Source: Isoetes taiwanensis (lineage: Eukaryota > Streptophyta > Lycopodiopsida > Isoetales > Isoetaceae). Taken from it: 64,000 bases of DNA. The position numbers were made by a program, and so were the translations under genes. The stretch covers positions 6,101,278 to 6,165,277 of the forward strand of contig JAJEKV010000040.1 in assembly GCA_021234155.1 (NCBI GenBank), in the 5' to 3' direction. A model generated the notes under the pieces. The model was not told where the DNA came from and searched no databases. It worked only from the letters and a program-made list of their open reading frames with translations. Shown piece after piece: positions 17,661 to 58,485 of the stretch. Positions within the stretch are counted from its first letter, which is position 1. Each line of letters starts with the position of its first letter.

Positions 17661-17930
17661 ATGGACCTGATGTTGTCCCACGGCATATTCATAGACGTGC
17701 TCAAGATATCATGTCAGAAGCTCCTCTCCACATATGTCACCATCCTTGATTTTAATGGACGTACCATCTGGACCCTCACTATCCAAAATCCCGTGGACTA
17801 TGAAGTGCACTCGATGTACATGGGTGTTCCTTCTCATGAGTTCATAGCCTCAGATGTACAACTTCTGACAGAGGTACACAAGGGTGGCATCAATAAGCTG
17901 TTTATCTACTTTCTCAAAAACATTAAGTAG
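17661..17930 (+). CDS. 89-codon frame conserved in both duplicate units, unknown
   Basis: The frame begins MDLMLSHGIFIDVLKISCQK and contains TYVTILDFNGRTIWTLTIQN. The copy at 23177-23446 differs at only a few residues. Because the duplication is recent, conservation alone does not prove coding. I do not recognise it; it may come from an LTR retrotransposon leader or tail. Confidence 0.25.
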   Translation: MDLMLSHGIFIDVLKISCQKLLSTYVTILDFNGRTIWTLTIQNPVDYEVHSMYMGVPSHEFIASDVQLLTEVHKGGINKLFIYFLKNIK

Positions 17931-19727
17931 ATACACCTATGATAAGGACGGAACACATTAACTTCCCACGACATCCACTTAATGATTGTAGACTAAAGAA
18001 GAGAGAAAATGCCAAAATTTTGTAAGAATATCTTAACATTTCTCTCCAGTCGTAATCCATTCAAATACTGAAATACTCAATCGAGATTCGTTTATTGCAT
18101 TCTCTCGGTAGTGAAAGGCATGATTTTGCCAGCTCTAAAATGGAGGACGAACATCAAAGACATGTTCATCACCTGCTAGATATTTTGGTTAGCATTCTGT
18201 TAGCATAGAGCTGATCAGTGTAGTTATAACCACAATTGGATTTATTTTCACAGTAACATTCATGACACCACAAAGCTTAACTGAAATTATTAGCTTTACT
18301 TGCAATAGTACAAATGTTAATAGAGTATAAATTAAGAGAAAAGAAATAGCTTCTAGGACGAAGGCACCAAATCGTATGTCTGCATACTAATCATTTTGAT
18401 GTCATTTAACTTCTGTAAACAACACTAGATACCATGAATTGTATTATCTTTAGAAAGTCTTGATCAATTTGAAACTCTATTTTCTTTGCGATGTATTAGG
18501 TATGTAAAAGTACCGTAGTTGGACTATGTGATCAAGCTCCATATGGGTCTTTACTGGATTTATCTCTTCTTTTTTTTCCTGCTTAAATAAATCACTGGTA
18601 CAGACGTTCAAATTATCAAAAAAACATCATCCAAATAAATAAAATACAAAGTCCTATGGGTTGCGCCCTTGATTTTAAAAATCAAACTTTATTTTTTCAA
18701 ATAATAATTGATATTCTATTTGGACGGTCAATGCTAGAAGCGATTCTCTTGACAATACAAACTATAATAAACAACTTCAAATTTAAGCAAAGGAGTATTT
18801 GAATCTTTAGGATTTATTCATCCAACCAGGCTCAAATCTATCAAGAGTTCTTTATATTGTCTTCTCAACAAAGATCTTAGATAATCACAGTTTGGCTCAT
18901 TCATAACGATTGGTTCCACTCCATTGTGCCTTTGTGGCCTCGTTCCCGATGGCCAGCCTATGCGATAGCATAAACAAGGCAAAGGATTTGAACTCAGAAA
19001 TCTAAAGGCTTAATAACTTGAGAAAGCATGCATAAGGATCCCCTTATATAAAGAAAAAAGGCACCCTTTCAGAAGAATCTTTAATCAACAAGAAATTTTC
19101 TGACAGATAATAGAACTAACTAAAATATCTGAATTCGCTATTGATAGACGATTCGGGCCTTTTTAGGCGATGATCGGCTAAACATGATGATTTTCGAAAA
19201 GGCTTCTTGATATGACTGTAAGGGGCATGACCCTGTCATCAGCCATATCATTAATAATAAGTATATTTCAAGGCTAAGGTTTTGCTACGGCATTTGACAC
19301 ACTTAAGATCCATATAGATTATATCCATATACATAAAGATTTCACTTAAAACCTTGTTGAGCTTGAGCCCCCCAAATTGGCATAAAACCGTAGCAATGGC
19401 CTCAATTCTTTTGGAGGTCTTTCATCTCAATTTCTTTAGAGATTGCCTCGAACGTGTCTAAGGTTTTGCATCTTATTCCAATCCATTTAGGAATAGCCCC
19501 AAGTCTATCTGGGATCTTTTTATCTCACTTCCTATAGATATGGCCTCTACTTTGTTAGAGATCTTATCGTCTTAGTAGTAGTAAGTAAAGATTTTAAACC
19601 ACTCCAATGCATGTCATTTACTAGATATTCCTCGTTGGTGTATATAAGTCATTGCTTGTTTTATCAATTAAAATAACTTCCTTACAATACCATGCTCCAT
19701 CAAAAGACTGATGAAATTTAAACTTAA

Positions 19728-20420
19728 TTAGATACCTTCGACAAGAACTCCATGTCTCCTTATCATGACTAGTAAGTACCTTTTATGTTCCATTTTCTGC
19801 AAAAACTCAGGAGAGGCTTCACTACCCGTACAAGGCTTTAGTACAAAAACATTAAAAACGGGATGTACATTAGTCCATTTTCCATATAAAAACAAACCAT
19901 AGGCATTCTCGCCGACCTTATCATCAATTTGAAATGGACCATAATACCTGAGAGCCAGTTTCACGTACCTATTACCTATTTTCCATATGCATTTCTTCGG
20001 AAGATGCATTCAAAACCATTGACCTTTTACATCGTCTACTTTCCTTTATTTCTTTGCAAGTCAAAAGATCATAGCTTTCTACTTTTTTGAATCCGAATCT
20101 TTACTTCTTGTAGAATGTCTGTAAAAGGGAATTCTTTGAGTGATAGAATGAACAATGATATTGTAATTAAACTTCAAGACATGAAGATACTCTTCCCATT
20201 GACTTTGTCTTTCTGCAACATAAGTCCGCAACATATCATCCATAGCATGGTAATCTTGGTCTGCCCATCCGTCTGAGGATGCTAGGTTGTATAGAGCTTT
20301 AAATTTGTGCCTAGATTCTTCATAAGTCGTGACCAGAATCTACTAAGGGTTGTCAATTTTTCTCGAATAAAGTGAGCCTGTTTAGACAACCTCTCTATCA
20401 CTGTCTAGGTTTTTGGTCAT
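19728..20420 (-). pseudogene. Ty3/gypsy integrase C-terminal half, unit 1
   Basis: On the minus strand, 20420-20150 reads as the integrase core end (SSDGWADQDYHAMDDMLRTY, then QSQWEEYLHVLKFNYNI), the region of the PQTDGQTE motif and the plant gypsy QW.EYL..LEFAYN motif. From 20009 a 93-residue frame gives the GPY/F module: KLALRYYGPFQIDDKVGENA, then NVHPVFNVFVLKP. The rest of this minus-strand element is not recognisable within the unit. Stops occur between the two parts. It is a different gypsy family from the plus-strand element that supplies gag. Confidence 0.75.
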
Positions 20421-20711
20421 CCTTATAAGTTAATTTTAGTAATACCTAGATGAAGTCTATAGTGATGTGCTTTCGAAGTTTCTTAAAAATTGGTAAAGGC
20501 TGAATCGATTCCATAGTCTTGCAAGTAGAGGCTTTCATTTGTTGTCAAACTATACGAGCTTCTACTTATTTCTTAACTACATATTGCTTAACATTCCTTT
20601 CAAGTTTAGGCCAATAAAAATGTCTCTTCACAGTGGCAAGAGTGGTTTGGATCCCTCCATGTCCATAATATGGAGGTTCATACATTCTTGTATGATCTAT
20701 ACGCCTGAGTA

Positions 20712-21032
20712 GGGTAAAAGCATGTTAGGGTGTACCACTTTTGGAACCTGCAAAAGTACATACACTAGGTACTTCAGAACTGGGTACTTCCTCATTTTTA
20801 TTTTCATTAAAACTAGTACAAATATCCAAAATAAAAGTCAAGGACGCATTAATATTCAATGTTAAGATAACGATAATGCTACTGGAGACCAAAATATATA
20901 TAAAAGTTCTAGAATGTACCTTTTATTGAGATATTACACAGGTACCCAGTACCCAGTCCTGGGTACCTTTTTAGGTACTTTTTTGGTCACTAAATAATAC
21001 TTTTTAAGGGACACCCTAACATGCTTTTACCC
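20712..21032. mobile_element. 321-bp MITE with 22-bp TIRs and 4-bp TSD
   Basis: Termini are a perfect 22-bp inverted repeat starting GGGTAAAAGCATGTTAGGGT. The element is flanked by AGTA on both sides (20708-20711 and 21033-21036). The same locus in unit 2 has a single AGTA (34103-34106) and no element, giving a true empty site. The interior is AT-rich, with GGTAC-containing repeats (GGTACTTC, GGGTACC) and no ORF. A 4-bp TSD is unusual among plant DNA transposons, and the GGGTnnAAG start is shared with the large element at 50906-58412. Confidence 0.9.
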
Positions 21033-22291
21033 AGTAACATATACGTGATCCGTGTATAAAGAAGTTAAACCATTATAAACCATGTACTCTGCAAGCTGTC
21101 ACTATCCATCCTTTTGTTACTAAATTGATAAATTATATTCGACGGTCTCCCCATAAATCCTCAAGCTTCCCCTTTAGAATCTGCACCGCACAGGAATCAA
21201 CTTTGAATTTCTGCCAAGTACTATGGCGCTTGCATGTCTGTGGATATTTAAAACGTTTCAAAATGCCTATTCAATGATTTGGCTAAAAATTTCCTGGGGT
21301 AATGTTGCATTCTCCATCGTAGTTGCTCTCAAATAGCCTGGATGCCAGCAATTGGCATGTTTTCTTTTCTGTCATCCAAATGGCCACTTTTATTTTTAAG
21401 GTTTATGAGATCATATATATATACAAGATTTTGAATCTCCAGGGAAGTCATTTAGACAATTGATGCAATCTAATGCTGGAGATGCTACATAATGATAAAT
21501 TGCTTGGGGCTTCCAGACAAGCCTTGTGCTTATCAATTGAAAAGCAAATTGTCAGTTTCCCATGGATATGTTTGTTCATGCACTAGAGATAATTGGTGCC
21601 AACAATTTGCATTATCAACTTTTGACTATCTTGACAATGTTGTTTTTTGCAATGAAGAATTTCAATTATATGTTTCGACCTGGCCTATTTTCTGATGTCA
21701 AACTTGTTGTCTCTTTCCTTGATGAAATTTGACACTTTACTTGCTAGTTTGTCTCAGTCAATTTGAACCACCACTTCTTCCTTTTCCCATTGGTCAATCT
21801 ATCTATTGGATTAAAAGTTGGATCTAATAAAAGAAAGAGAGTGCAACAAGCCCATTACTACCTAGCATTAAAAAACCTCTAGGACTTTCGAGGGAATAAC
21901 TTTATTGTACATCTGTAAATATATATTTACAAGTTATTTAATACGTCCGTACGGCGATGTTCCTACGATGCACATTCTAAAACATTCTATTTTGGATTTT
22001 TCGCAATATTTTTGAAAAAAAATTCCATTTTCAGATTGAGGTGCTTATCCATCAACATCTAGAACATCTTAAACCATTTTATTTAAAAAATATGAGCATC
22101 TATAACATTCTATAACATTATTATTATTTTACCATTTGCAAGGCTCAAAAACTTTTTAATTTTCCTCTAGATTCCAATCGGTGACTAATACTTGCAGCCA
22201 AAAATACCGGCTCAAGCTCACAAGGTCAGGGCAAGCAGCATCACTGGCAATCTAAAAACCTTTTTGGCCGAGAGCACGAGGAGGAAGAGGA

Positions 22292-22884
22292 ATGTCAACT
22301 GAAGCCATCAACGGGAGGCTAGTTCGAATGTGTAACCAGATGGAACAACTAGTACAGTGGGCCATGCCTCTCATACATGCCCAAGAATGTAGACCAATGC
22401 CGCCTCCACCTCCTCAGGATATAGATCAAGCAGCTCAACTGGAATAGGAGGAAGTCCATGTGCCTGAGAAGAACAGAAAGAGGAAAAGAAGAAGCAAGAG
22501 AAGCCCAACACCTTTTAGCTCCAACCCAACCGACAGTACTAATAGTGATTCACGTATCAGCTCAGAAAGTGAGTCAGACACCTCATGGGGCAGGCAAAGG
22601 AACTGTAGGGCAGGGGACTACAGAAAAAGGTCGATAGTGCCATGAGTAATGTGTGGAAAACACAAAAATTGAGACAATTCTCTGGGAAGGACAGGTCAGA
22701 AATGGAAGTTGAAGCTTGGCTGAATGAAATGGAAGGATTTAGAAACTCATGCGGGGTGAAAGATAAAGACACAGGAAAAGTGGCAACAACAAATTTGATT
22801 GCCCCCGCATGTATTTCGTGGAAAGGACATGCTAAGTCAAACAAGCTAAAAAGAAACAATTGCACACTCAAAATCTTCAGTAAG
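22292..22884 (+). pseudogene. Ty3/gypsy gag N-terminal part, unit 1 (truncated)
   Basis: A start at 22292 gives MSTEAINGRLVRMCNQMEQL and a Pro-rich segment, then an in-frame TAG at 22446. The reading continues as a basic/Ser-rich linker (KNRKRKRRSKRS) and the gag core KDRSEMEVEAWLNEMEGFRN. It is cut off at 22884 by the tandem-duplication junction. It lacks the second half of the capsid, the zinc knuckle and the protease. Confidence 0.75.
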
Positions 22885-23176
22885 AAGCAGATTCATAACT
22901 CACATTATGATGCCAATACAGATTATGCTTCATTATTTCCAACAAAATGTAGACTGATTGCAGCATATATAACCTCTTGTTTGGTATTACTGCAACAAAC
23001 ATTTATTATGTCTGATCTAGCTTCTTACACTTTGAAAGTAGAAAGTTTCTAATTGATCTGTATCAAAGGAAACAAAAAAGAGACCAAGCTACTTACATTT
23101 ATCTTAACAGCAATCCAACAAACCAACACTACATGCACTGTAAGATAAGATAACAATTCAACCAAACAACTTACTA

Positions 23177-23446
23177 ATGGACCTGATGTTGTCCCATGGC
23201 GTATTCATAGACGTGCTCAAGATATCATGTCACAAGCTCCTCTCCACATATGTCACCATCCTTGATTTTAATGGACGTACCATCTGGACCCTCACTATCC
23301 AAAATCCCGTGGACTATCAAGTGCATTCGATGTACATGGGTGTTTCTTCTCATGAGTTCATAGCCTCAGATGTACAACTTCTGACAGAGGTACACAAGGA
23401 TGACATCAATAAGCTGCTTATTTACTTCCTCAAAAATATTAAGTAG
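23177..23446 (+). CDS. second copy of the 89-codon unknown frame
   Basis: Copy of the frame at 17661-17930, of the same length with about seven substitutions (for example CHKLLS for CQKLLS and HKDDINKLLIYFL for HKGGINKLFIYFL) and no stop. It lies in unit 2 of the tandem duplication. Confidence 0.25.
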   Translation: MDLMLSHGVFIDVLKISCHKLLSTYVTILDFNGRTIWTLTIQNPVDYQVHSMYMGVSSHEFIASDVQLLTEVHKDDINKLLIYFLKNIK

Positions 23447-25220
23447 ATACACCTACGGAACACATTAACTTCCCACGACATCCACTTAATGATTCTAGAC
23501 TAAAGAATAGAGAAAATGCCAAAAGTTTATAAGAATATCTTAACATTTCTCTCCAGTCGTAATCCATTCAAATACTGAAATACTCAATCGAGATTCATTT
23601 ATTGCATTCCCCCGGTAGTGAAAGGCATGATTGTGCCAGCTCTAAAATGGAGGACAAACATCAAAGACATGTTCATCACCTGCTAGATATTTGGTTAGCA
23701 TTCTGTTAGCATACAACTGACCAGTGTAGTTATAGCCACAATTGGATTTATTGTCACAGTAATATTCATGACACCAGAAAGCTTAACTGAAATTATTAGC
23801 TTTACTTGCAATAATACAAATGTTAATAGAGTAATAAATTAAAAGAAAAGAAATAGCTTCTAGGACGAAAGCACCAAATATTATGTCTGCATACTAATCA
23901 TTTTGATGTCATTTAACTTCTGCTAAACAAAACTAGATACCATGAATTGTATTATCTTTAGAAGGCCTTGATCAATTTGAAGCTCTATTTTCTTTGCGAT
24001 GTATTAGGTATGTAAAACTATTGTAGTTGGACTATATGATCAAGCTCCATATGAGTCTTTACTGGATTTATATCTTTTTTTTACTGCTTAAATAAATCAC
24101 TGGTATCAAAAAAACATCATCCAATTAAATAAAATACAAAGCCCTATGAGTTGTGCCCTTGATTTTAAAAATCAAACTTTAATTTTTCAAATAATAATTG
24201 ACACTCTATTCCGACGGTCAATGCTTGAAGCGATTCTCTTGGCAGAGATCTGATACAAACTATAATAAACAACTTTAATTTTGAGCAAAGGAGTAATTAA
24301 ATCCAGTCGGGCTCAAATCTATCAAGAGTTCTTTATCTTGTCTTCTCAACAAAGATCTTAGATAATCACGGTTTGGCTCGTTCATGGCGATTGGTTCCAC
24401 TCTGTTGTGGCACCTTTATGGCCTCCTTCTGGATTGCCAGCCTATGCAATAGCGTAAACAAGGCAAAGGATTTGAACTCAGAAATCTAAAGGCTTAATGA
24501 CTTGAGAAAGCATGCATAAGGATTTTGTCTCCTTATATAAAGAAAAAAGGTACCTTGTCAGAAGAATCTTTAATCGATAAGAAATTTTCTGACGGGTAAT
24601 CGAACTAACTAAAATATCAGAATTCGCTATTGATAGATGATTCCGGCCTTTTTAGGCGATGATCGGCTGAACATGATGATTTTCGAAAAGGCTGCTTCGT
24701 GATCCAAGACCTTGAATTGACTGTAAGTGACATGACCCTGTCATCAGCCATATCATTAATAATAAGTATATTTCAAGGTCCTTATCATGACTAGTAAGTA
24801 CCTTTTATGTTCCATTTGGATAGAGGGGTCGGACAAGGCTGTCCTTTGGCGATGGGCGATGGGCGATGTCAACAGGGATAAAGCGATATCAGGTAAGTGC
24901 ATTCCTGGTGATTATAGATTGTAGATTAGGTAAATACAGTAACTGTGCCCTCGGGTAAGAGGAAGGTTTTCGATCGTCGGGATATGAATATGTTCTTGGA
25001 TTAATGTCTCAAAGCAATATGTGAAAACAAAAAAGGTAATAGGTCAAGCAGGGGGGTACCACTATGATCCAAGATTAGAGATTGAATCATAAGAGTAAGT
25101 CGTAAACTCACATGCACAGAAAGCATGGGCGAAAGGAAATCGAGATTCCGGCATTCGGTGATTTCAAATTACAGAACCGTTACAAAAAAAGGGGGAAAAA
25201 GAAAAAGAGAAGGGGGGGGG

Positions 25221-33000: not shown

Positions 33001-33261
33001 TTCGCACAAAAGCGGATCATAAACCCCATACAAATTGTTCAGTTAAAAGCTGATTGATAACGACGCATCACTGCACGGCCACGAAGCCGAAGTAAAGCGG
33101 GATGCTGGTAATAATAGGAAAAAGTCAGCCTTCAAAAAAGGCTACATCATAACAGCGTGATGTGCTAGTAGCGCCCTTTTAGGGAGCTCGCCCATGCTAC
33201 ACAAGTCCAGGGGCCTCACGGCACAAGGGACATTAATGTATATTCTATTGTATTCTATTCT
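33001..33261 (+). other. LINE 3' UTR and TATTC-type tail
   Basis: Non-coding 260 bp after the ORF2 stop, ending in irregular TATTC repeats instead of poly(A). It is followed immediately by unit 2 sequence. Confidence 0.65.
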
Positions 33262-33270
33262 ATTTTCTGC

Positions 33271-34160
33271 AAAAATTCAGGAGAGGCTTCACTACCCGTA
33301 CAAGGCTTTAGTACAAAAACATTAAAAACGGGATGTACATTAGTCTATTTTCCATATAAAAACAAGCCATAGGCATTCTCGCCGACCTTATTATCAATTT
33401 GAAATGGACCATAATACCTGAAAGCCAGTTTCACGTACCTATTACCTATTTTCCATATGCATTTCTTAGGAAGATATATTCAAAACCATCGACCTTTTAT
33501 ATTGTCTAACTTCCTTTGTTTCTTTGCAAGTTAAAAAATCATAGCTTTTTACTTTTTTGAATCCGAGACTTTACTTCTTGTAGAATGTCTGTAAAAAGGA
33601 ATTCTTTGAGTGATAGAATGAACGGTGATATTGTAATTAAACTTCAAGAGATGAAGTACTCTTCCCATTGACTTTGTCTTTCTGCAACATAAGTCCGCAA
33701 CATATCATCCATAGCATGGTAATCTTGACCAAAATCTACTAAGGCTTGTCAATTTTTCCCGAATAAAGTGAGCCTATTTAGACAACCTCTCTACCACTGT
33801 CTAGGTTTGGCCATCCTTATAAGTTAATTTTAATAATACCTGGATGAAGTCTATAGTGATGTGCTTTCAAAGTTTCTTAGAAATTGGTAAAAGGCTGGAT
33901 TGATCCCATAGTCTTGCAAGTAGAGGCCTTCATTTGTTGTCAAACTATACGAGCTTCTACATTTTTCTTACCTACATATTGCTTAACAGTCCTTTCAAGT
34001 TTAGGCCAATAAAAATGTCTCTTCGCAGTGGCAAGTGTGGTTTGGATCCCTCCATGTCCATAATATGAAGGTTCATACATTCTTGTATGATCTATATGCC
34101 TGAGTAACATATACATGATCCGTGTATAAAGTTAAACCATTATAAACCATGCACTTTGCA
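33271..34160 (-). pseudogene. Ty3/gypsy integrase C-terminal half, unit 2
   Basis: Counterpart of 19728-20420. It carries the same GPY/F region but with an internal ~75-bp deletion: the sequence jumps from GGTAATCTTG straight to ACCAAAATCTACTAAGG at about 33727, removing the segment that encodes the SSDGW part in unit 1. It cannot encode a functional integrase. Confidence 0.7.
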
Positions 34161-34877
34161 AGATTGTCTTTGTCATTTTCTAGATTACTCTAGAATGGGA
34201 ATGGTCGAATCATTATGGCGATCTTGTTGGTAGAGTTAGGCCATTTTTGAAAGTATTCTGCAAGATTATCTCTGCCTTCCCTCTCTAGTATGCTTAAAAG
34301 TTCCACAACTTTGTCTCCTTCCTTTTTCAAAATGAAGCTCCCAGGATCATTTATACCCTCAAGTACCATCTACCTACGAGTACTTAAGCAACATTGGGTT
34401 TAAACATCGCAAGGGCGAATATTGTCTCCCCCATCTTGGAGATTTATAATGCTCCAAATTGCTTGCTTGAATCATCTCTAAATGCTTTGCATGGAAAATG
34501 TTCAAATTGGTAGCAAATGTCTTTGTTTTTGTTCCATCCAAAGCTCCACTCGAATGCCATCATCAACTCCCTATCACACATTAACATTCATTTAATTTAT
34601 CAATTTTCAAACCATGATTGGTTGGTAGTATATGCCTTTAGACACCTAGTATATGCCCATAAATCCTCAAGCTTCGCCTCTAGAATCTACACCTAGTTTA
34701 GTCTTGTCGCATAGGAATCAACTTTGAATTTCTGCCAAGTACTATGGCACTTGCACGTCCGTGGACATTTAAAATGCTTCAAAATGCCTATTCAATGATT
34801 TGGCTGAAAATTTCCTGGGCCAATGTTGCATTCGCCATCGTAGTTGCTCTCAAGTAGCCTGGATGCCAGCAATTGGT

Positions 34878-34992
34878 CCAGGGAAGTCATTTAGACAATT
34901 GATGCAATCTAATGCTGGAGATCATATATATACAAGATTTTAAATCTCCAGGGAAGTCATTTAGACAATTGATGCAATCTAATGCTGGAGAT
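34878..34992 (+). repeat. 45-bp direct repeat, 70-bp period (unit 2 only)
   Basis: CCAGGGAAGTCATTTAGACA plus the following 25 bp occurs at 34878-34922 and 34948-34992. Unit 1 has a single copy (about 21440-21484), so this arose after the tandem duplication. Confidence 0.8.
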
Positions 34993-35727
34993 GCTACATA
35001 GATATGTTTGTTCATGCACTAGAGATAATTGGGGCCAACAATTTGCATTATCAACTTTTGACTGTCTTCACAATGTTGGTTTTTGCAATGAAGAATTTCA
35101 ATTATATGTTTTGACCTGGCCTGTTTTCTGACGTCAGACTTGTTGTCTCTTTCCTTGATAAAATTTGACACTTTACTTGCTAGTTTATCTTAGTCAATTT
35201 GAACCACCACTTCTTCCTTTTCCCATTGGTCAATCTATCTATTGCATTAAAAGTTGGATCTAATAAAAGAAAGAGAGTGCAACAAGCCTATTACTACCTA
35301 GCATTAAAAAACCCCTAGGACTTTCGAGGGAAGAACTTTATTGTACATCTGTAAATATATATTTACAAGTTATTTAATACATCCTACGGTGCATGTTCCT
35401 ACGATGCACATTCCAAAACATTCTATTTTGGATTTTTCGCAATATTTCTGAAAATAAATTCCACTTTCAGATTGAGGTGCTTATCCATCAGCATCTAGAA
35501 CATCTTAAACCATTTTATTTAAAAAAATGAGCATCTATAACATTCTATAACATTATTATTATTTTACCATTTGCAAGGCTCAAAAACATTTTATTTTTCC
35601 TCTAGATTCCAATCGGTGACTAATACTTGCAGCCAAAAATACTGGCTCAAGCGCACAAGGTCAGGGCAGGCAACATCACTGGCAATCTAAAAACCTTTTC
35701 GGCCGAGAGCACGAGGAGGAAGAGGAC

Positions 35728-37390
35728 ATGTCAACTTAAGCCATCAACGGGAGGCTGGTTCAAATGTGTAACCAGATGGAACAACTAGTACATTGGGCCA
35801 CGCCTCTCATACATGCCCAAGAATTAGACCAATGCCGCCTCCACCTCCTCAGGATATAGATCAAGCAGCTCAACCGGAATAGGATTAAGTGCATGTGTCT
35901 GAGAAGAACAGAAAGAGGAAAAGAAGAAGTAAGAGAAGCCCAACACCTTCTAGCTGCAACCCAACCGACAGTACTGATAATGATAGTGATTCACGCATCA
36001 GCTCAGAAAGTGAGTCAGACACCTCATGGGGCAGGAAAAGGGTACAAAAATTGAGACAATTCTTTGGGAAGGATAGGTCAGAAATGGAAGTTGAAGCTTG
36101 AGTGAATGAAATGGAAGAATTTGGAAACTCATATGGGGTAAAAGATAAAGACATAGGAAAAGTGACCACAACAAATCTGATTGCCCCAGCATGTATTTTG
36201 TGGAAAGGATATGCTAAGTCAAACAAGCTAAAAAGAAACAATTGCAGATTCAAAATCATCAGTAAGGTTTTCTGCAAGCATTATGTCCCAAGGTCGTACA
36301 CAAGCAGGCAGATTCAGCAGTTCTACAGGCTAGAGCAAGGGAACCTATCAATGGCCAAATATACAGAGAATTTATGAGGCTAAGGATGAATGTTCCAAGG
36401 ATCACAGAGAGGCAGGTGGTGGATGGTTATATTGAGGGGTTGAATAGCAACATTAAGAGATTGGTCCGGGCCATCAACCTGAAAACAGGTGGGGAGGCCG
36501 AAGACAAAGCATCAAGCTTGGAGGAAGCACCGTCAACCTCAGGGCAGAAACAGTCATTCTACAAGGGGAAAGCAACAGGCCCTTATCCACCCAAGCAGGC
36601 ATCCACCACACCAACATGGTAGTAGTCTCAGGGGAAGATGGATAGAAAAGGCTCATATAGGGATCAGAAGCATCAGGAAGGCCCAGTAGGGAAGTCAGTG
36701 AAATATTTTCTGGATAGTATTCCCAATGAAAAGAGGGAGGAATGCATAAAAAAGAACCTATATTAAGATGCTTCCAGCTGGGACATTGTACGCATGATTG
36801 TCTTTTTGTTATGAAAGCAACCCTGGCAGAGCTTATAGATTGGGAATCGCCAACAGAATTGGACGACGACGACAATGACCAGCAAGAAGCACAGAACTAT
36901 ATAGAAGGTGAATGTAGAATTTGTGCAACCATTGAGTCAGGTGAAGTCAAAGTCAGTCCACTGTTATTTCAGCAGAGGGCATCATAGATGATAAGCCCTA
37001 TGTAGTTCTTATACACACAGGTAGCTCCCACAATTTTGCTTCGCCTGGGTTAGTAGCATTGCTGAAATCCAAGACTCTCAAATCAAACCCAAGGCCAATC
37101 AGTATGGCAAGTGGGGCAGTCTGCCACACCAAAGGAAGAAGAGTCAATTTTGATATAGACCTAAGCGGAACTATGTTGACTATGGGGCAGAGGTCATGGA
37201 CATTGGTAAGTATGACCTTATAGTCGGCATGGAGTTCTTGAAGCCAGCTAAGGCAATGATCGACTGCGACAGACATGAGATCTCAATCACGACACCTGAC
37301 GGCTACCGTTTTGTGGTCAAAGGTAAGGAAGTCCCTTTTGTAATGCAGTGTGTGTCGTTGAAGCAGTTGCACGAATGCATCCCTTAGGCT
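35728..37390 (+). pseudogene. Ty3/gypsy gag and protease, unit 2 (plus-strand element)
   Basis: The gag start at 35728 is followed at once by a stop (MST then TAA, where unit 1 has GAA). Further on come SRISSESESDTSWGR, then FFGKDRSEMEVEA, a stop, and a capsid end (NVPRITERQVVDGYIEGLNS at about 36390). A zinc knuckle at about 36770 reads RCFQLGHCTHDC, with the second Cys changed to Leu. The protease is at about 36990-37390: VLIHTGSSHNFASPGLVALL, where the catalytic Asp of D-T/S-G is His, then YDLIVGMEFLKPAKAMIDCD. It is inactive. The frame then enters the RT start (PYRGVEYEITLAP at 37430) and is broken by the copia at 37472. Confidence 0.8.
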
Positions 37391-37471: not shown

Positions 37472-38006
37472 TGTTAGAATCAGAGCTTGGGATTCGAACC
37501 CAAGTATGCCAAGACTCTGTCTCTTTCAAACCCCTCCCGCACCTATATTTGCATACACGCACCTGTATCTTCACTCAGCCGCATATTTTCTATGACAATC
37601 AGTCATCTATATATTTTCTCATCAACCTGGATATATCCACTTGTCAAATCGTGCATGCCCTTCATATAGAAAGTTTTTCAACTTGCCTAAATAATAGGAT
37701 GCCCTGCTGTCCTTATCTTCCAGCTGTCGTTGACTTTGACCCGTTGACCAGTCAACCCAAAACCCTAAGTGGCGGGGGGGTGTCTGTGTTTCTAGCGAGC
37801 CCAAAGAACACCCGGTAGGGTGTGCACCCACCTTTGACTTTGACTTTGACTTTTGACTTTGACCCCATCACTTTGCTTCTCATAGGTCTCCCCCATTCAA
37901 CTGCTTAACTTTGAATAACATGACACCATTTAACAACTCTAATCTACTGCCACTGCTTCTCATAGATTAGAATATCACATGACACATAATTTTGTCATTT
38001 CCAACA
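37472..38006 (-). repeat. copia 3' LTR (535 bp)
   Basis: It begins TGTTAGAATCAGAGC and ends TTTGTCATTTCCAACA on plus. It contains several TTGAC boxes (37727-37765 and 37831-37862). Near its left edge GGGATTCGAACCC forms a tRNA T-arm-like palindrome. Confidence 0.92.
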
Positions 38007-38756
38007 TTCCCCCTTCATGTGATATTCCCTGTCATCACATTGTAACAATTTCCTTATTTCCTGGAATCTGGATAAAGGTAGAGCCTTTGTAAGAATATCT
38101 GCTCTTTGATCAGCTGTACTAACATAGGTCAAATGCACTTGATTTCTTTTGACCATATCTCTGATAAAATGAACTTCCATTTCAATGTGTTTTGACCTTT
38201 CGTGCAAAACTGGATTTTTTGTCATGGCAATACAACTAGTATTATCACAATAAATGATTGTTGGTCCTCTTTGAGCAAATCCAAATTCTGCCATAAGCCT
38301 TCTTTCCCAAATAAGTTCCTTAGTCAATGCATGCTTGGCTGCTGAGTTGTACTCAGCTTCAGCACTAGATAAAGCAATGCTGCTTTGCTTCTTGCACTTC
38401 CAAGCAACTGGGGCTCCACCTAATAAAACAACATACCCTGAAGTTGATTTTCGTTTGTCTAAATCTCCTCCCCAATCAGCATCACAATAAGCCTGCAATT
38501 GTAAGCTGGTTTCATTAAATACTATACCAAAATGCATTGTACCTTTTAAGTATTTGAGGATCCTTTTTGCTGCAATCCAGTGTCCTTTACCAGCCCTGTC
38601 ATTGTACCTACTGAGAATATTAACTGCAAATGCAATGTCCGGCCTAGTACAATTGGCTACATAGGACAAACAACCAATCAAACTTCTGTAAGGTATTTTC
38701 TCCATTTGTTTGCTTTCAGCTTCTGTTTTTGGACTCATATCTGCAGAGATTCTCAT
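37995..38756 (-). pseudogene. copia RNase H and end of RT
   Basis: A 253-codon minus-strand frame contains IPYRSLIGCLSYVANCTRPD, then GHWIAAKRILKYLKGT, YCDADWGGDLDKRKSTSGYV, SIALSSAEAEYNSAAKHALT, YCDNTSCIAMTKNPVLHERS and KHIEMEVHFIRDMV. These are the hallmark RNase H motifs of copia (DADWGGD, SSAEAEY, DN..C). This part is intact to its stop at 37995, which lies just inside the 3' LTR. A frameshift near 38750 separates it from the upstream RT. Confidence 0.92.
38007..38015 (-). other. copia polypurine tract
   Basis: Minus-strand AAGGGGGAA directly abuts the 3' LTR, where plus-strand DNA synthesis would be primed. Confidence 0.8.
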
Positions 38757-39610
38757 GACCAGGAACCATAGGAGTATATGCCATATTGCAATCTTCCATA
38801 TGAAATTTCTTCAACATGTTTTGAATATGCCCTTGTTGACTCAAAGCTAATATCTTGTGATTTCTGTCCCTGTAAACATCTATGCCCAGAAACCTCTTTA
38901 ACTCTCCAAGATCACTCATTTGGAATCGTTTCCTTAAGATATCTTTGCAATGATTTAGTACTTGAGTTCCCTTTGATATCATAATATTGTCATCAACATA
39001 TAAAGCAATAATGCACCAGGCATCTCCCATTTTGAACCTATAGATATTACCATCATAATTGAGCTTCTCAAAACCTTGTTCTACAAGATATCCATCCATA
39101 CATTTATACCATTCCCTAGGAGATTGTTTAAGACCATAAACTGCTCTATTCAACTTCCAAATTTTTCCTTTTTCCTCTTCAAATCCAGGTGCAGGTCTTA
39201 AATAAATTTCCTCCTCTAACTTAGCATTCAAGAATCTTTGTACTTACATCCATATGATGGATTTCAAGGTCACAAGCATTAGCAATAGCTAATAACATTC
39301 TCAAACTATTTATCTTTACCAATGGTGAGAATGTTTCATCAAAATCTTCTCCTTTTTTCTGTGTAAAGCCTTGTGCAACAAGTCTGGCTTTAAATTTCTT
39401 TGTATTTTTGTCTACTCCTGGTTTTATTCTATAGATCCACTTACTTCCAACTATATTCTTATCAGAAGGAATATCCACTACTGTATAAGTGTTTGTTCTT
39501 TTGAATGCTCTCATTTCTTCTTCCATAGCACATTTCCAGTTCTTTTTCCATTCATATCTTGAACTGCCTCCATATAATTTTTGTGGAATCTTGTCTGTTT
39601 CAAGTATCAA
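38716..39610 (-). pseudogene. copia reverse transcriptase, one frameshift
   Basis: The first frame (39610-39221) has WKCAMEEEMRAFKRTNTYTV, SKWIYRIKPGVDKNTKKFKA and RLVAQGFTQKKGEDFDETFS. The second (39231-38716) has NAKLEEEIYLRPAPGFEEE, WKLNRAVYGLKQSPREWYKC and IIALYVDDNIMISKG, with the catalytic YVDD intact, then FQMSDLGELKRFLGIDVYRD. The frameshift at about 39225 falls in the MDVKTAFLN motif. Confidence 0.92.
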
Positions 39611-44270: not shown

Positions 44271-45500
44271 GTGTTAAGCCTATCATTAAGGCTCCTTATA
44301 TGATGAGCACCCCAGAGCTAGCAAAGCTCAAGAAGCAATTGCAAGAATTGTTAGAGCTCGGATTCATTAGGACAAGCATATCACCCTTCAGGGCGCCCAT
44401 TCTCTTCGTAAAGAAGAAGGATGGAAGTTTAAGGATGTATATGACTACTGTCAATTGAACAAGCAGACAGTAAAGAACAAATACGCTTTGCCTAGGACAG
44501 ATGACTCGATGGATCAACTCCAAGGAGCGAAAGTCTTTTTCAAGATAGACTTGAGATCGGGTTACCATTAGATAAGAATCAACGAAGAAGACATTCATAA
44601 GACCATCTTTAGAACGAGAATTATGAATTTACAGTCGTGTCTTTTGGCCTATGAAATTCCCCAACAATATTCACGAGGCTAATGAATGATATATTCAGGG
44701 AGTTCTTGGATGAGTTCATCATCATCTTCTTTGACGACATCATGATCTACAACAAGTCAATGGACGAACATGTAATACATTTAAGAAAAGTCTTGGAGAA
44801 GCTAAGAGGGCACCGTTTGTTCGACAAACTTTCTAAGTGCCATTTTGCTACAATGAAAGTCGAATACTTAGGTCATGTTATATCAGTTGAAGGTATAGTG
44901 ATCGATCTGTCTAAGATCGAAGCCATAGTAGATTGGCCAGCACGAAAGAACGTCTCCGAAGTGAGAAGCTTTCTTGGCGTAACAGGCTACTACTGGAAAT
45001 TTATAAAAGATTTTGCTAAGTGGATGCCCCCCTTGTCGGACCTTACTAAGAATAAGAAGATAAAAGATTGGATGGCACATTGGCTAGAGGTTATACAAGC
45101 TTCATTCGAAAATCTCAAAGAAGCCTTAACAACAGCACCAGTGCTCACCCTGCCAGATTCAAACAAGGACAAGCTAATGGCAACAGATGCAAGTAAGCTA
45201 GCAACAGGTGGAGTTCTCATGCCAGAAGGAAGAGTTTCTAAAAAGATGATTGACGCTGAATGTTATCCAATGCATGATCAAGAACTTCTAGTCGCCGTAA
45301 GAGTTCTTTGTATTTGGAGGCACTATTTGCTTTGTAGGAGATTTCAATTAGATACTGACCATCAAAGCTTCCAATACATTTTCACGTAACCACTCCTCAA
45401 TTTGAGGCAAAGACGTCAGATGGAATTCTTCAAAGAGTATGACTTCATGATAGTTTATAAGCCACTAAATGTGGTTATCGACGCTCTCTCTCGCCGGCCA
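44271..45500 (+). pseudogene. Ty3/gypsy RT and RNase H, resuming after the copia
   Basis: Directly after the ACCAG TSD the gypsy frame resumes: [40 protein letters not shown], a stop-containing stretch, then DEFIIIFFDDIMIYNKSMDE (FFDD where FxDD is usual), KVEYLGHVISVEGIVIDLSK and VRSFLGVTGYYWKFIKDFAK. RNase H follows: KLMATDASKLATGGVLMPEG, YPMHDQELLVAVRVLCIWRH and LDTDHQSFQYI. Stops near 44450, 44570 and 45387 show it is dead. Confidence 0.9.
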
Positions 45501-50853: not shown

Positions 50854-51058
50854 CGGATGCCAAGACCATACCTCTAGAAGGTCATGGATTTGCGGGACCG
50901 ATTATGGGTCTAAGTTAGATATTGGGGTACAAAAAAGCGCGACAAAGCGAAGCAGATAAGCACGCCAAGGCGGCTATTCTTATCACCTTCCGATTCGTAG
51001 CGCCTTTTAAAACAATGATCCGGGCGTCGGACCCGTAATCATTCGCGCCAAATCGATA

Positions 51059-51862
51059 ATGATCTGGCCAGACGCAGATTATACCCTATTTTACATTCAA
51101 TTGTACCCTCGCTTTAGAGATTTTTTCCTTCCGCGCTTGCTTCATACCTTGCTTTTTGTTAATTCACCGCTTTTCGATGGCCCTGAGAAGGGATTATTCC
51201 TCGCCAGGCCGGAAGTGGCTGCGAGGATACCGTGGATCAAGAAGATTGGAACGAAGTATGGGCCAGAACCATTCGAATCCCTTTAAAGAAAAAGGCAAAA
51301 TAAAAAAATTTATTTTGTCCGCACTCATCTGAAGCAACAATTGGAGGACTTGGTCGAGTTCCTCAGATCCTGAAGGGGATTACCAAACAACTAATTGAGG
51401 AAACTCGTTGCTTTGGCATTTGCTTGGGAGCATTGTGGTCGTCTGAGCAAGATCATGAGGGTCATAAGATAAATTGGGATGCATACAAGTCCGCGAGGTT
51501 TTACGTTTGGTCGAGAAAAAACCAAGGGATGATATGGATGTAAAGAAAGAAGATGTTAAAAAATGAAAACCGTGACATCCTTCGTGCCAAAAGCACACCT
51601 CACCTTGAGGCGAGGAAGAACACCTCGGATGGAATTAAAAGCGAAATCAGGTCAGCCAAATGAATTTTCTGTTTGCAATTGTAGTTTCAATATTTCTTTG
51701 ATTGATGAGGAAGTCAAGAAGTTGGAAACAGAGTTAGATAACCTGTCCAAACAGATTTGGCTAAGATTATTAGTAAGATTGAGGTTGACAACAACTCCCC
51801 TAGCACGGGAGCAAGTAATGATTGATATAGCAAAGAAGGAGGTGAGTAGACTACGAGAATGA
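51059..51862 (+). pseudogene. unassigned coding-like pieces in the left part of the Sola-like element
   Basis: Frames at 51059-51286 (PLFDGPEKGLFLARPEVAAR) and 51563-51862 (a coiled-coil-like DEEVKKLETELDNLSKQIWL) look coding but lack a recognised family. They could be the N-terminal part of the plus-strand cargo gene whose phosphatase domain lies at 53215-53965; 51863-53214 between them shows only broken frames. Confidence 0.3.
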
Positions 51863-53214
51863 ATTATCTGCTTTGAATGACAAAAGCAGATAAAAAGAAT
51901 GAAGATTTGACCCGCATTGCGATTTGAAGCATAAAGTAAGTGGAGAGCTTTACTTGCTCCAAACCGAAGCTTGCCTTCCAAAGGTAAGTGTTGAAGCAAA
52001 ATGAGACGAAAGGGAGAAGAAGCAAAGGCTAAAAGCCTCTTTAGAATTCGTGACTTCAAGAAAGCAGGGTCTGTTTAGAAGTCGCTAGGCGCTTGATGCA
52101 CCAGACACTTCGGGAATCTCTATCATGACTATGAAGAGCAGTTGCCGTGTTTTATGGAGAACTCATGTCTTTGCATGTGGATTGGTATTCAATCCACAAT
52201 ATACTTTGAGTATGAAGTTGCCATGTGAACATGCCTATCACTTGGCATGTTGCATGCTTCAGCATGAAAAGAAGGCATGCTTCAGTGCTTAAAGGAAGTT
52301 CCCAGGGGATTTGTTTGTGAAACTTGGTTTTAGAAGTTGGGCTGAAGATGGAGCCGAGGTAGCCATCAGCAATGGGTTTGGAGCGGGCACTAGTAGTGCT
52401 TTTGCTTCACCTACAAACAATCCAACTTCTTCACCAAAATTTGTTCTTTGAGTCTCCATTAGTTCCCGATTATACTCTAGCGGTTGTGGCATCACCAAAA
52501 CACATTACAAAAAGCTGTGGCATCACCAAGTCCTGTTACAAAAGCGGTTGAAGCATTAAAAAAGGTAACCATTTGGTGTTTTTCTCGTGTTTGTTTTGTA
52601 AACTTTATTTCATGTCTATTCTAACTAGTTTCCTTCATGATTCATTGGTAAGGAAAAGCCCAAAAAAGAGAGTAAAATGTGCACTAGTGGTTGACAAAGA
52701 CTGATGAAAAGGAAGAGCACGAATTGCATCGCTTACAGCCAGTGAGCACCATAAAGTCAAGGTTGAGGAGTAGAACCTGCGGGGAGAAAAGCTCCGGGGG
52801 TTGATGAAGTTGTAGATCCGGGCGAAGAAGGCGGGTGGTGCTGATCACATTGCAACAAAGGTGCTGATAAAGGGAAGAATATAGCGAAAGAAAGAAGAAC
52901 AAGTGCAAGCACCTGCGAGTGGAGAAGAAGAAGAAGGGTAGGCCCCTAAGAAGATGCCAACACAACCTCCAAAAGGTGATCCTCGAATGTTATTTACAAA
53001 ATGTTAACCGGTCGTGTCCGGTTCATTAATCGAAGTTCACGAAAACTTTGAAATAACACTTGAAAGTTCTTTGAAAACTTTGAAAACTTTGAAATGACAC
53101 TTGTGTTAATTTGTTGAAAAAGACAACAATTTGAAGTCGTGAACTAATTTCTTTTGTTAAGACCCCTTAAATTGATGTCGAGAATTGTTGATGTTTGAGT
53201 TTTTTGTTTTATGA

Positions 53215-53965
53215 ATGTTGCGACCCTTAGAAAAGAAAAACTTGTCATCCTAGACTTAAATGGAGTTCGTGAGCACATTCCAAAAAAAAAGAACGAGAAT
53301 TAAAATTCCAAAGAAGTTGGGAAGAAGCATTATGCGGGGGAAAGTGGTGGTGTGCACTGTACCGATAAAGTTTTTAGAAGGGTGCTTTGCGGATTTGAGG
53401 TAGCCATATGGTTTTCTATGATGAAGCACAACATCATAGAAATCCTAAATGTTATAGTGCCACCTTCCTTTATAGGAAGGTTCAAGTTCATTTGGGGGTC
53501 GAAAGAGTCGAGGCGATGCCTTTCAATTTTCCGGGGGAATCCAAACAAGCCCGGTGCTTATGAAGCCAATTGTAAAAGTGTATGAGGCTTTTTGAGGATG
53601 TAGGGGAGGTAGTGCTAGTTGATGACTCATTGTACAAGACTTTCTTGTCCCCACAAGACACTTGCTTCATAATTGAAAAATTTGATAATGACATCAATGA
53701 CAAAGGTTTCAATTTCTTAGCTGCATTTCTAAAAACCCGCTCAATGCCAAGAACCCTCAAAAAAGTGGTTGTACGAAAGCAAAGTATGTTGAAGATAAAG
53801 TTTAAGAAGAGGACATCGACATACTTAGGCTTCTGGCTGGCTGACCATCTAAGTGAGCTAGCGAGGTGGAAAGTGGCTATTCTCAAAAGCATTCAGTTAA
53901 TGAAGGAAATTGTTAAGGTATGTTGTTTAATTTCATTTAGTTGTGTTGTTATGCTATTGAAGTGA
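53215..53965 (+). pseudogene. FCP1/NIF-like HAD phosphatase domain inside the transposon
   Basis: Plus-strand reading: KLVILDLNGV (53241-53270), the plant DLNG variant of the FCP1 DxDxT nucleophile motif, then a stop. Next is KVFRRVLCGFEVAIWFSMMK (53364-53423, the FEV.VWSS motif), HNIIEILNV, FKFIWGSKESRRC, then a frameshift at about 53580. After it, LFEDVGEVVLVDDSLYKTFL (53588-53647) carries the HAD VDDS motif with the Asp pair at 53621-53626, followed by FIIEKFDNDI. In FCP1/SCP proteins this domain dephosphorylates the RNA polymerase II C-terminal domain. Here the fourth nucleophile-loop residue is Gly, not Thr, the frame is broken, and it is probably a captured host fragment. An acidic 72-codon frame (54192-54410, NNNNPAGNNTDFVNEQDEEP) may be its C-terminal continuation. 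Confidence 0.65.
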
Positions 53966-55080
53966 TTGTAGTAATGTCATTGCTTTCAATTCATTTAGTT
54001 GCATTTTTTGTATGTTGTTTGATTTGAATTACTTGGTTTGATGTAACCTAGAAGTTGCAATCGCCGAGGAAGCAATTGAGGTAACTATTTGCATCGATCT
54101 CATAATAAAAATGATAGCAACATAGAAACAGATAAGCAACAGGTTCACAAGGAGCATGTTTTGGAGAAAATAGAAACAGAAGTGCCAGGAGATGTCTAAG
54201 CTACAAGGCTTGATAGATGATATAAGTATAAACATACTGATGCAGGCAGGAGATAAAGTACATGAAGATAATAATAACAATCCTGCAGGTAATAATACTG
54301 ATTTTGTCAATGAACAGGATGAAGAGCCTGCAAGAGAAGATACTACTCTTATTGCTGATACCGGCACTTCAAATGATGCAGCAACAAGAATTCTCACAGA
54401 AGGAGAATAAGAGTCTATAGACTCTTTTCAATATTTATGTAACTTAGCCTGTATGTAACTGTAATAGTACAGCAAGTGAGTTGTACAGTTTTGTACATAT
54501 ATTGTAACAATTTTGTATCTAATGAATATAATATTTACCTGCACTTGCAGAGTTTCTACTTGCAAAATTGTTGTCCCAGTTTATATTTGAATGTAATGGT
54601 TTCTCCTATGCTTGTCTCAGATCCAAAGATGAAGTCCAAATCCTAATTGGTTAAACAAACAAACCTGTATATGAAGCCAATCTTTGAACATATGCATGTA
54701 AAAAGGGTTTAGAGTATTTACTTTGTGCATTGTCTTGAGCAGTCCCCAATTGAACACTTGCAGAAAGTTTCCACCATTTGTTTCCAAGGACCAAACTCAA
54801 GGGACCCAGCAGGTTAAGTATAAACTCTGAAAACAATTAGCACGTCAGTGAGACAAAGAAAACTTGACAAAGCACCAAAGCGGACCCGATTCAAACTACA
54901 AATTTCTGTGCAACAAAGAATTTGTTAGCTTCCATTGATAGGTTTGTTAGAAAAACAATAGGTTTGTTAGAAACAATGTAGCAGCAATGAGCCACTTTAC
55001 ATGTGAATGATGTGCTTACGCGCCTCTTGGGCGTATGCGGCGACGGTCGGTGTTGTTAGCACTCTACGGAAGGGATGCCA

Positions 55081-58000
55081 TCACTTTTGGCATGTCTCTT
55101 CACTCATCTTGAACTTGTTGTTGCCAAGACTCTCCATATCAAATTTCACTTGTCTAATAAGGTGACCGTACACACTAGCAACCGGCTTGTCCACTAATAA
55201 CTCAAAGTGGAGTGCATCAATGCGCTTGTAGTAGTGGCGGAAAACTATGACTTCTCCCACACCAAATGCACGAACCCCATGAGTCTTCATATGCATCTAA
55301 CAATGTATGTTTAGTCTCTCGTACACCTAAGAACATAAAAGTCAACTCCTTGAAAGATCCTCTCGATGCGCATTTTTACAAAGTTATCTTCAACTTCTAG
55401 AACGAGTGAGGTATTCATTAGCCTCATCATCATCCTCTTCTTCATCCTCATCCTCATCTTCATCTTGAACTGCTTTTGTTGTTGGCTGATTGTTTTCTCG
55501 TAGATTTCTTCAACTTTACATTTGTGGACCAAGCTCCCGACGAGCTTTGTTCATGCAATCATCCCATTTTCCATGAAAGCAAAAGGAACGAAACAAGAGA
55601 GGCACGTGGGCAACTTTGCGGGATTTGTTTTGTCACATGGTCGATGGAATGAAGTTTAGAGCTCCCACAAAGTGATCTCCATTCCCTCTTTTGGTTTGTC
55701 TACATTTTCGGGTTCAATATGCCAAAAACCCGCAATATAGAAATGAAAAAATGTCACCTCAAATGAAGAAGAATGCAATGGTACTTGATTGAATTCACCG
55801 CCTTATATTTGGGTCAGTGGGTTGTTCATCATATATTAATTCACGAAATCCATTAACGTCTTTTGGTACGCCCAATTTCCAGGAATCATACTTCAATTGT
55901 TCTCTTGCCAAAATCTTTTTAGGATTGCACCTTGTCCATCATGTTCTCCTTTCCCATGAGAGGCGGCAAAAATTCCATTCATACTCAATTCCTTCACTAT
56001 TGACATAGTTCCTTCCTAAATACCAAAAGTTCTTGCTCCTTTGAACTGTCTTTGTTACACCATCACTCCAAAAATATGTTTCTCGTACAAAATATTTTGT
56101 ACTCACGAGCCGATCTGCATGAACTTTCAAGCAATGTTGTACAAACTCACCGCTATGATCTCTATCATCTCAAATATAAAAATGTACTTCCTTTATGATT
56201 CTCCTCTCATTCACTAGCTGATGGTCTGTGAGTTGTCTTCCTCTTTTCTTTGCTGCTTTTCCTTCTCTAGTTCCTTCTCTCTGCTTCCTTAGCTTCCATA
56301 TCTTCTATCTCATCCCGGTTGCATGTCTATATGTGATATGAACCAAAATTGATGCCTGATCAGTGTGCCCGTGGCAAGATTGTGCCTCTTTCTCAATTTT
56401 AAAACGTAATTTTCAGCAAAATCAATAACCGGTACAATCAGACCTTCGGAAAAGTATCCAAGCACTTCTGAATTGCTTTGCCTCGCCATTATGTGCAACA
56501 TAATTGTGTGGGATGAATTGTACGGTGTCTTGAAGCATCTTTCACTGGAATTGGGGCAGGCTCTCTTTCTTGTATGCAAGTCTAGTTACCTTTGCTGGTT
56601 TCTTTCACCGCCATTTTTTCTTGGTGTTCTCCTTCATGTAACCAACCTCTTGCTGTTTTTGAAAACAAAAGATCAGTTTGTAAGTTTGCAAACACAAGCA
56701 CAACAATCACAAGCACAAAAATCATTTAAGCACAAATGCCAAATACACTACCTTTTCAAACCGCTTCCCACTCCACTTTGTAATCGGACTCCTCCTTCTC
56801 CTTTGGACATATTGGCAACCCGTTTGTAAGACCACCAGAAATTTGTTTGTAAGATGTTGCATCAATCATCTTAACAACTCAAAATAGAATGTTCAAACAT
56901 CTTAACATTAAAAAAGAGTACCTTTTCAATCCACAATCCTTGCATGCCACCTGCAGACAATTATGTTTGTGCCACTCTTCATCTTCATCCTTAGGGTAGA
57001 TCATTTGCCTCCAAAAAATCACTAGTGGATTTATAAACATGGTTCTTGGTTGCACAAAAGTTACCATCACCACAAACAAAGACAAGTACGCTTTGCAATC
57101 TTTATGCACGCCATTTGGATCTGTTCTCGATTTTTGTTGAGTGCTTGCATCACATATTCAAAGTGCATGTGATATTGGCGCAGAAGTAAGTTTCTCTTTT
57201 CATTTAAGCCTCACAAATGATGGCTTGAAAGAATTCAAATGTCTTTTGGGTAATCTTAATGTCATTGAATTCCTTCTTGAAGTTCATGTAAAATTGCAAC
57301 TGCAAACAAAGAAGATCTATATAGAAACAGATATATGCAAATGGAAGAAACATACTAAAACGGGAAATCACCTGAGATATTTCAAGCAGTTGTATTGGAT
57401 GATCAATTTTATCGCCATCTGCTGTAACAAACTTTCTCACATGCTTCCTGTATGGTGAAACTCGTGTGTTTTCTGTCCAGAACTTGTAAACACAATTCCT
57501 AACCCTCGTCGAATCAATGCATCACACCTCTTTTTTCCTTGAAAACATTGACCACGGACCACATTCTTGGACTGCCATTATTCTTCTTCAGTTGCGGAAC
57601 AACAGATTTTCTAGATATATGAAGGAGACGTGCGACAACAGATTGGTTGATGGATTTTGCTGATGAAGATACCATTTGCAAAGTAGACTTTCTTGCTTGC
57701 AATACATCTGTCTTCCTTAATTTCTTTTGTTCATTGAATGTCTCCCGAACATTTTTAATCACATTCTTCATGATCTTGCTTTTGATCATGATCAACAAAA
57801 TCCACTTCCAAAGGGCAATTTACCTTCACTCTCTTCACAAATCATTGCACCACCATTGCTTTATCCCCTTCTTTCAAAGGCTTTTGTAATTTCGTTGAAA
57901 TAATCGTCCATTTTTGGACAATTCTTGAAGCCTTCTCGCACTCGAGCCTCGTTCAATTTCTGTGGTGCAAGTTTTCTTTCTCTCTCTCCCTTTCTCTTTT

Positions 58001-58238
58001 TATTGTCTTGATTGCCTTCTTCTCTCGGCTTGAATTTCCTAAAAACTTTGAGTCTCTTTTCCTCATCCAAATCGAACTGATTGATCCATTGAGGATCGTG
58101 ATGTACGAAGAATTTTGCGAGACAGAGAAACCGTGATGTACAAAAGAACGATTCGTTTCGGAGGTACAAGTCTGAATGATCATTCCTCCACAAAAAATTC
58201 AAGAAGCGACCCGCCATCTCAAAAGGGGTAGACCGCAC
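55081..58238 (-). pseudogene. DDD-type (Sola-like) transposase, multiply frameshifted
   Basis: Minus-strand pieces in order: a start-proximal, Lys-rich region (58238-57861, DPQWINQFDLDEEKRLKVFR); RKSVVPQLKKNNGSPRMW (about 57580); VYKFWTENTRVSPYRKHV (about 57480-57430) and KFVTADGDKIDHPIQLLEIS; RQYHMHFEYVMQALNKNREQ (about 57160); EWHKHNCLQVACKDCGLKRY (about 56950, a WH..C...C..CG finger); IVPVIDFAENYV with the first Asp at 56421-56423; HSGEFVQHCLKVHADRL, then YFWSDG with the second Asp at 56062-56064; and SHGKGEHDG with the third Asp at 55939-55941. This IDFAENY...WSDG...HGKG..DG order is the one I know from uncharacterised eukaryotic DDD transposases. Stops and shifts make it inactive; some gaps may be introns. 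Confidence 0.72.
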
Positions 58239-58485
58239 GGATCATTTGGAACGAATTTGATTTTGGAGACCATGTCATCGATCCGGAAGCAATTGGCTAA
58301 AAACGGATCATCGTGTTCCCGCTCTCCAAGCACCCCCAAGCACAGCAGATCAAGCACGAAAAGCAGAGCATCCGGACGGGTGCTTTTGTACCCCAATATC
58401 TAACTTAGACCCTTATGTCCTAGGACACTCGCGCGACTTGAATCTGTCTTATTTCATATGTATACTTGTACAATTTGACATCATT

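Follow-up and report, generated by a model that had tools for sequence, protein, structure and literature searches.

Sola elements are DNA transposons that are still little studied. They have been described as having a DDD transposase, a 4-bp target site duplication (TSD), a length of mostly 2–9 kb and terminal inverted repeats (TIRs) of 11–1124 bp, and as seemingly uncommon in flowering plants, in the relevant excerpt of one report (PMC10741241). Excerpts of other reports place them in the moss Physcomitrella and in Capsicum (PMC9033089), in Azolla (PMC6786969) and in Ceratopteris (PMC6890710); their occurrence in a plant is therefore already reported and is not the novelty here. As far as the available text goes, dictyostelid Sola2 elements captured Fanzor1 genes, a precedent for a second gene (PMC3627910), and Mutator-like elements (MULEs) include two-gene DNA transposons whose second gene is not a transposase, such as mudrB or an anti-silencing factor (PMC6446971). 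The main text of the Isoetes taiwanensis genome paper does not contain the word Sola (PMC8566536), and no Sola element with a RING or NIF gene was found in the literature searched, which did not extend to the founding Sola papers. Here we describe an element of this quillwort located at positions 50906–58412 of a 64-kb stretch of its genome (hereafter, the window), which is probably the decayed remnant of a DNA transposon carrying two genes or more, with a 4-bp TSD, a Sola-like transposase (open reading frame 1, ORF1) and a convergent helper gene (ORF2).

The element and its family in the genome

The element measures 7,507 bp and its two 29-bp TIRs are mutually perfect, within wider inverted arms (50903–50934 and 58384–58415) that are 97% identical over 32 nt; a preliminary description of the window had placed these TIRs and the TTAT duplication exactly. 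The genome searched comprised 1,658,258,908 bases in 1,110 contigs and was assembled from Nanopore reads, so that assembly errors may account for some of the broken frames in repeated copies. Allowing up to one mismatch, the 29-bp TIR matched 485 sites (239 + 246), a count that includes a second family with the same TIR, and the reversed-letter control matched none (0 + 0). The end searches covered the best 40 of 269 candidates for the left end and the best 40 of 307 for the right. Twenty regions were fetched, 19 of them with a full copy; the other (L034) showed no right end and was left out. Eighteen of the 19 copies had been chosen since both ends matched; for L035 it was the right end and an open frame that decided.

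The window element and these 19 copies, read end to end, were 2.2–8.0 kb long. Identical 4-bp TSDs, varied in sequence, flanked 18 of the 20 elements and were one base off in the other two, and the TIR pairs were perfect in 17. The copies were 92–97% identical to one another, the window copy standing furthest from the rest (94.1% identity to the majority sequence of the family), and frames were broken in many of them. The DNA surrounding the window element is another repeat. When its joined flanks were searched, the best 40 of 195 candidates included two that were the window's own flanks and 38 that spanned the junction by query range. Four junction alignments were inspected and all were ungapped at the junction: the best empty-site match (L049) was 93% identical and had a single TTAT, and the other three (84–85%) differed at the insertion site. 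Other copies and an empty site, which the preliminary description had suggested looking for with the termini, were thus recovered.

A second family (represented by L039) shares the 29-bp TIR, has the TSD ATAG and is 74–79% identical in DNA to the window family. Two short elements with the same TIR, of 271 bp (L045, G000:C1:339599-339869) and 272 bp (L046, C156:76389-76660), are miniature elements of the family: their TSDs are perfect (CATA and TCGG), their ends are 93–99% identical to L039, and they retain about 120 bp of its left end and 158 bp of its right end. The same TIR also bounds a 3,505-bp element (L047, G000:C43:145987-149491; TSD TGGA), whose interior shows no relation to either the window element or L039 and contains four ORFs of 93–119 amino acids, and a 2,157-bp stretch with non-matching flanks (TGAA and CAAG). 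Altogether, the TSDs, the empty site and the short derivatives show that the family moved in the past.

Near the right end, the motif AAGCAC is clustered. Over the 20 copies, its mean was 4.0 per copy in the right-hand 120 bp vs 0.23 expected from the interior, and 0.95 at the left end, and the cluster was also present in both miniature elements. The motif, which was picked only after being seen in the data, may represent a candidate transposase-binding site.

The transposase

In the window copy, the transposase pieces found by tblastn run from 58093 to 55084 on the minus strand and the plus-strand pieces from 51338 to 53920, and both genes are broken. The preliminary description had taken the former for transposase remnants of a large TIR transposon, a reading that holds; the relatives keep the Asp positions. 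Longer open ORF1 frames are carried by relatives, including L039, and the core could be aligned over six loci at the motifs VIDFAENY, FYxSD, WSDGC and HGKGEHDG. The Asp of VIDF/YAENY was retained in all four rows that reach this motif, that of WSDGC in six of six, and the E and D of GKGEHDG in five of six, the L043 frame stopping short of it. In L039 the acidic residues are spaced D-119-D-40-E or D-119-D-42-D, as read from the sequence.

Pfam models cover the hAT, MULE, CACTA, Harbinger and mariner transposases, and none of these, nor any other Pfam transposase family, matched the three ORF1 pieces searched at E up to 1 or three more at E up to 0.1. Likewise, no NCBIfam transposase family matched ORF1, a PDB sequence search with the transposase returned nothing meaningful, and a DNA search of plasmids found no relatives of the element. 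Viral and prokaryotic contigs were each scanned once by pattern, with 14 and 69 pattern matches, respectively, among which no relative was confirmed. The piggyBac and Kolobok elements target TTAA, which did not occur among the varied TSDs of the 20 elements. By TSD length, conserved Asp residues and elimination, the Sola name is plausible, and ORF1 is probably a Sola-like DDD/E transposase.

The plus-strand genes

Upstream of the NIF-encoding frame lies ORF2, whose conserved N-terminal part is followed by a coiled coil and then by a RING-H2 finger. The RING-H2 ligand pattern is C-x2-C ... C-x-H-x2-H-x2-C ... C-x2-C, and the eight Cys/His columns were invariant in the four relatives compared, with a last pair of the form C-x4-C in L043. 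A basic linker containing GRP, which we take to resemble an AT-hook (no tool matched it), is visible in the plus-strand gene sequences. Copies L032 and L033 have longer open ORF2 frames than the window copy, and many open frames of 360–490 amino acids were present among the genome matches.

The second plus-strand frame encodes a NIF/FCP1-like domain. PF03031 was matched with E values of 6.6e-16 (L025), 2e-14 (L040) and 1.3e-11 (L044), i.e., with 58.8, 54 and 44.9 bits against a cut-off of 21.8, above it in three lineages. The best PDB profile match was UBLCP1 (2.3e-4), and a PDB sequence search with a single NIF domain gave no match. Many open frames of about 300 amino acids were found among the best 150 of 5,448 NIF candidates. 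The catalytic phosphatase motif is D-x-D; in all four lineages the first motif is D-x-N-G, so that strong phosphatase activity is doubtful, and the replacement suggests binding instead.

Judged from its sequence, the NIF frame may belong to ORF2 as its terminal exon or may be a gene of its own, the third of the element. In favour of a third gene, the window family (L029, L032) and L039 share an in-frame stop, at the same place, where the linker ends, and an ATG where NIF begins. A shared TTAG acceptor-like site just past this ATG, an acceptor-like site in L040 as well, and a RING–NIF gap of only about 0.2 kb point to an exon. A RING–NIF splice fusion, the initial reading, was downgraded after the shared stop and ATG were seen.

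Conservation across diverged families

Linkage was assessed by comparing the best 150 of 5,448 NIF candidates with the best 150 of 2,695 transposase candidates. A NIF match lay within 10 kb of 74 of the 150 transposase matches, where 0.27 pairs were expected, and all 74 pairs were convergent. By identity to the window fragment, NIF was paired in 43 of 57 matches at 62% or above, 28 of 42 at 55–61% and 3 of 51 below 55%; differences in lineage and damage to copies are not separated by these bands, and a few matches are two pieces of one gene. Similarly, 28 of 113 matches to the L043-type ORF2 lay within 10 kb of one of the 150 transposase matches (0.20 expected; two genes were counted twice), 27 of them convergent.

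In L040, L042 and L043, TIRs starting with GGGT and 4-bp TSDs (CAAA, TCAA and ATTT, respectively, the 4-bp length being a search condition) enclose the transposase together with ORF2. TIR matches of 16/20 arose in none of 120 shuffled controls and matches of 15/20 in 8 of 120. With a 2-bp TSD setting, the same pairs were recovered in L042 and L043, shifted by one base, with one extra 16/20 pair in L042. ORF2 is present in families with transposases about 46–49% identical to that of L039 over the joined regions. The elements L042 and L043, which were read end to end, keep ORF2 without a detectable NIF: four NIF queries gave no plausible match in L041–L043 at E up to 10, the ORF2 side of L041 extending beyond the fetched stretch. 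The NIF frame is present in all four of the window family, L039, L040 and L044. An unrooted FastTree phylogeny of the joined transposase regions separated these four from L041, L042 and L043, with a support of 1.000 for all regions, 0.999 for the C-terminal region and 1.000 for the N-terminus and core without L044, which is represented by C-terminal pieces only. On this unrooted tree, the difference may reflect either a gain or a loss of NIF.

Between the window family and L039, NIF had a dN/dS of 0.22, the RING exon 0.31 and the transposase core 0.18. One deeper NIF pair gave 0.32 at a dS of 1.9, and four others were saturated. The plus-strand genes are kept in a fixed convergent position across diverged families, and the earlier view of them as second-strand cargo was not supported, given this retention and ratios well below 1. 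As a separate observation, an identical (100%) copy of the L043 ORF2 lies on one other contig, and one of its transposase on another (G000:C423:309408-313598, C1054:7784769, C1018:27922834), which reflects either recent movement or assembly duplication.

Possible function and alternative explanations

ORF1 would bind the 29-bp TIR and subterminal motifs, and would cut and paste the element, inserting it with a 4-bp stagger. The helper proteins may act in the nucleus, where their most likely task would be to protect the element against silencing by the host or to assist the transposase, possibly by ubiquitin ligation and by binding to a phosphorylated partner, for example the RNA polymerase II tail. 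Going further, we tentatively propose, at less than even confidence, an old lineage whose movement depends on a dedicated RING-H2 ubiquitin-ligase-like helper, accompanied in one branch by an FCP1-like phosphatase-fold protein (part of the helper or encoded by a third gene) which would engage the host transcription or silencing machinery, and whose ORF1 may be separate from Sola1-3. If true, conserved RING and phosphatase-fold helpers would amount to a new type of host interface encoded by a transposon. The hundreds of TIR ends and the 271–272-bp derivatives in a single genome offer material for testing whether the helpers are needed for movement or to escape silencing.

Several observations weigh against this explanation. 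The Pfam RING scores were under the cut-off in three of the four relatives (E 0.007–0.07), L042 gave no Pfam RING match at all, and the L039 ORF2 frame holds two in-frame stops. RING and NIF as one protein is doubtful on account of the linker stop and the NIF ATG. Only 74 of the 150 transposases listed had a NIF neighbour, and below 55% identity no more than 3 of 51 did, misses in such a best-150 comparison being uninformative; one of the 28 ORF2 pairs was not convergent, and the end search found no ends in L041 and L044. For dN/dS between the two families, a single pair was compared in each region. Among copies of the window family, pN/pS was 0.56–0.73, with 36 nonsense changes over three regions; since these ratios are not 1, the copies retain some constraint or some shared ancestry. 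Finally, the comparison with Sola was made by published description only.

The plus-strand genes could alternatively be passengers, host pieces captured once and carried unused, as would agree with the broken frames in many window-family copies and with the Fanzor1 capture by DNA transposons, Sola2 included, in the accessible part of that report (PMC3627910). This is quite improbable, in view of the presence of ORF2 in a fixed convergent position in families so distant in their transposases, of the many open frames of NIF and ORF2, and of the low dN/dS between the two families; the open frames, the convergent linkage and dN/dS led us to discard cargo as the leading explanation. A closer competitor, which we regard as a real possibility short of probable, is that the helpers are direct transposition cofactors, involved in end binding, synapsis or nuclear import and not in anti-silencing. 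The TNPA protein of En/Spm and the Myb-like protein of Harbinger are transposition cofactors to which they can be likened; the helpers are kept alongside the transposase across lineages, and their sequences contain a coiled coil and the basic GRP-containing linker. However, the RING finger and the phosphatase fold would point to modification of host proteins and not to binding of DNA ends, and we favour, with modest confidence, a role at the host interface over that of a cofactor acting on DNA ends.

The lineage might also be a separate superfamily with 4-bp TSDs and not Sola, as suggested by the missing Pfam and NCBIfam transposase matches, the lack of a confirmed relative in the single viral and prokaryotic scans and the unusual helper genes. 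We consider this unlikely, since the 4-bp TSD, the putative DDD-type residues and the 7-kb size fit the Sola description as excerpted (PMC10741241) and Sola has been reported in moss and ferns, according to parts of the reports cited above. As for the inverted repeats being due to chance or being the ends of a larger structure, which the preliminary description had named as what would overturn it, the 485 genomic TIR matches with an empty control, the TSDs identical in 18 of 20 elements and the empty site ruled out this reading and leave it a negligible probability.

Other features of the window

The coordinates of the element and its parts are given in Table 1. Elsewhere in the window, direct repeats 82–95% identical (17390–19273 with 22885–24778, and 19788–22884 with 33258–36266) are probably other mobile elements. 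By their motifs, the ORF at 44655–45386 (+) presumably resembles a Ty3/gypsy reverse transcriptase and that at 37998–38810 (-) a Ty1/copia RNase H. An Rfam scan of the window at gathering scores gave no match.

Table 1. Parts of the quillwort element, with coordinates in the window
Feature	Position	Strand	Evidence
Left TSD, TTAT	50902..50905		sequence
Left TIR, 29 bp, GGGTCTAAGTTAGATATTGGGGTACAAAA	50906..50934	+	inverted-arm comparison, genome matches
ORF2 conserved N-terminal domain and coiled coil, broken frames	51338..51904	+	tblastn with L039 protein, 36%, 3e-28
ORF2 RING-H2 region, decayed in window copy	51975..52436	+	tblastn, 49%, 4e-41
NIF/FCP1-like phosphatase ORF, frameshifted in window copy	53208..53920	+	tblastn, 44-45%
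ORF1 transposase, Cys-rich, acidic C-terminal region	55084..55771	-	tblastn
ORF1 transposase, catalytic core, broken in window copy	55798..56655	-	tblastn, 52%, 5e-77; six-locus alignment
ORF1 transposase, N-terminal region	57426..58093	-	tblastn, 41-46% and 78%
Right subterminal AAGCAC cluster (3 forward, 1 reverse)	58328..58385	+	motif count
Right TIR, 29 bp	58384..58412	-	inverted-arm comparison
Right TSD, TTAT	58413..58416		sequence

Comparison with known systems

The quillwort element resembles Sola1-3 in its 4-bp TSD, its putative DDD-type residues, and its total length and TIR length, which are within the published ranges, and differs from them in its conserved convergent helpers, i.e., the RING-H2 protein and, in one branch, the NIF fold. 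In common with the dictyostelid Sola2 elements, as presented in the accessible text, it combines a Sola-like transposase and a second protein in one element with a 4-bp TSD. However, the second protein there is the TnpB-like Fanzor1, in place of RING and NIF, and the 3′ parts of those elements vary between related families, whereas ORF2 is kept across families in the quillwort. MULEs likewise have two genes, the second of which is not a transposase, and by analogy the two systems may be functionally alike; their TSDs of 8–11 bp and their proteins are different. The NIF domain is related to the NIF/FCP1-like HAD phosphatases (SCP, dullard and UBLCP1) by its PF03031 scores above the cut-off and its UBLCP1 profile match, but these enzymes carry D-x-D, whereas the quillwort version carries D-x-N-G and is located within a transposon.

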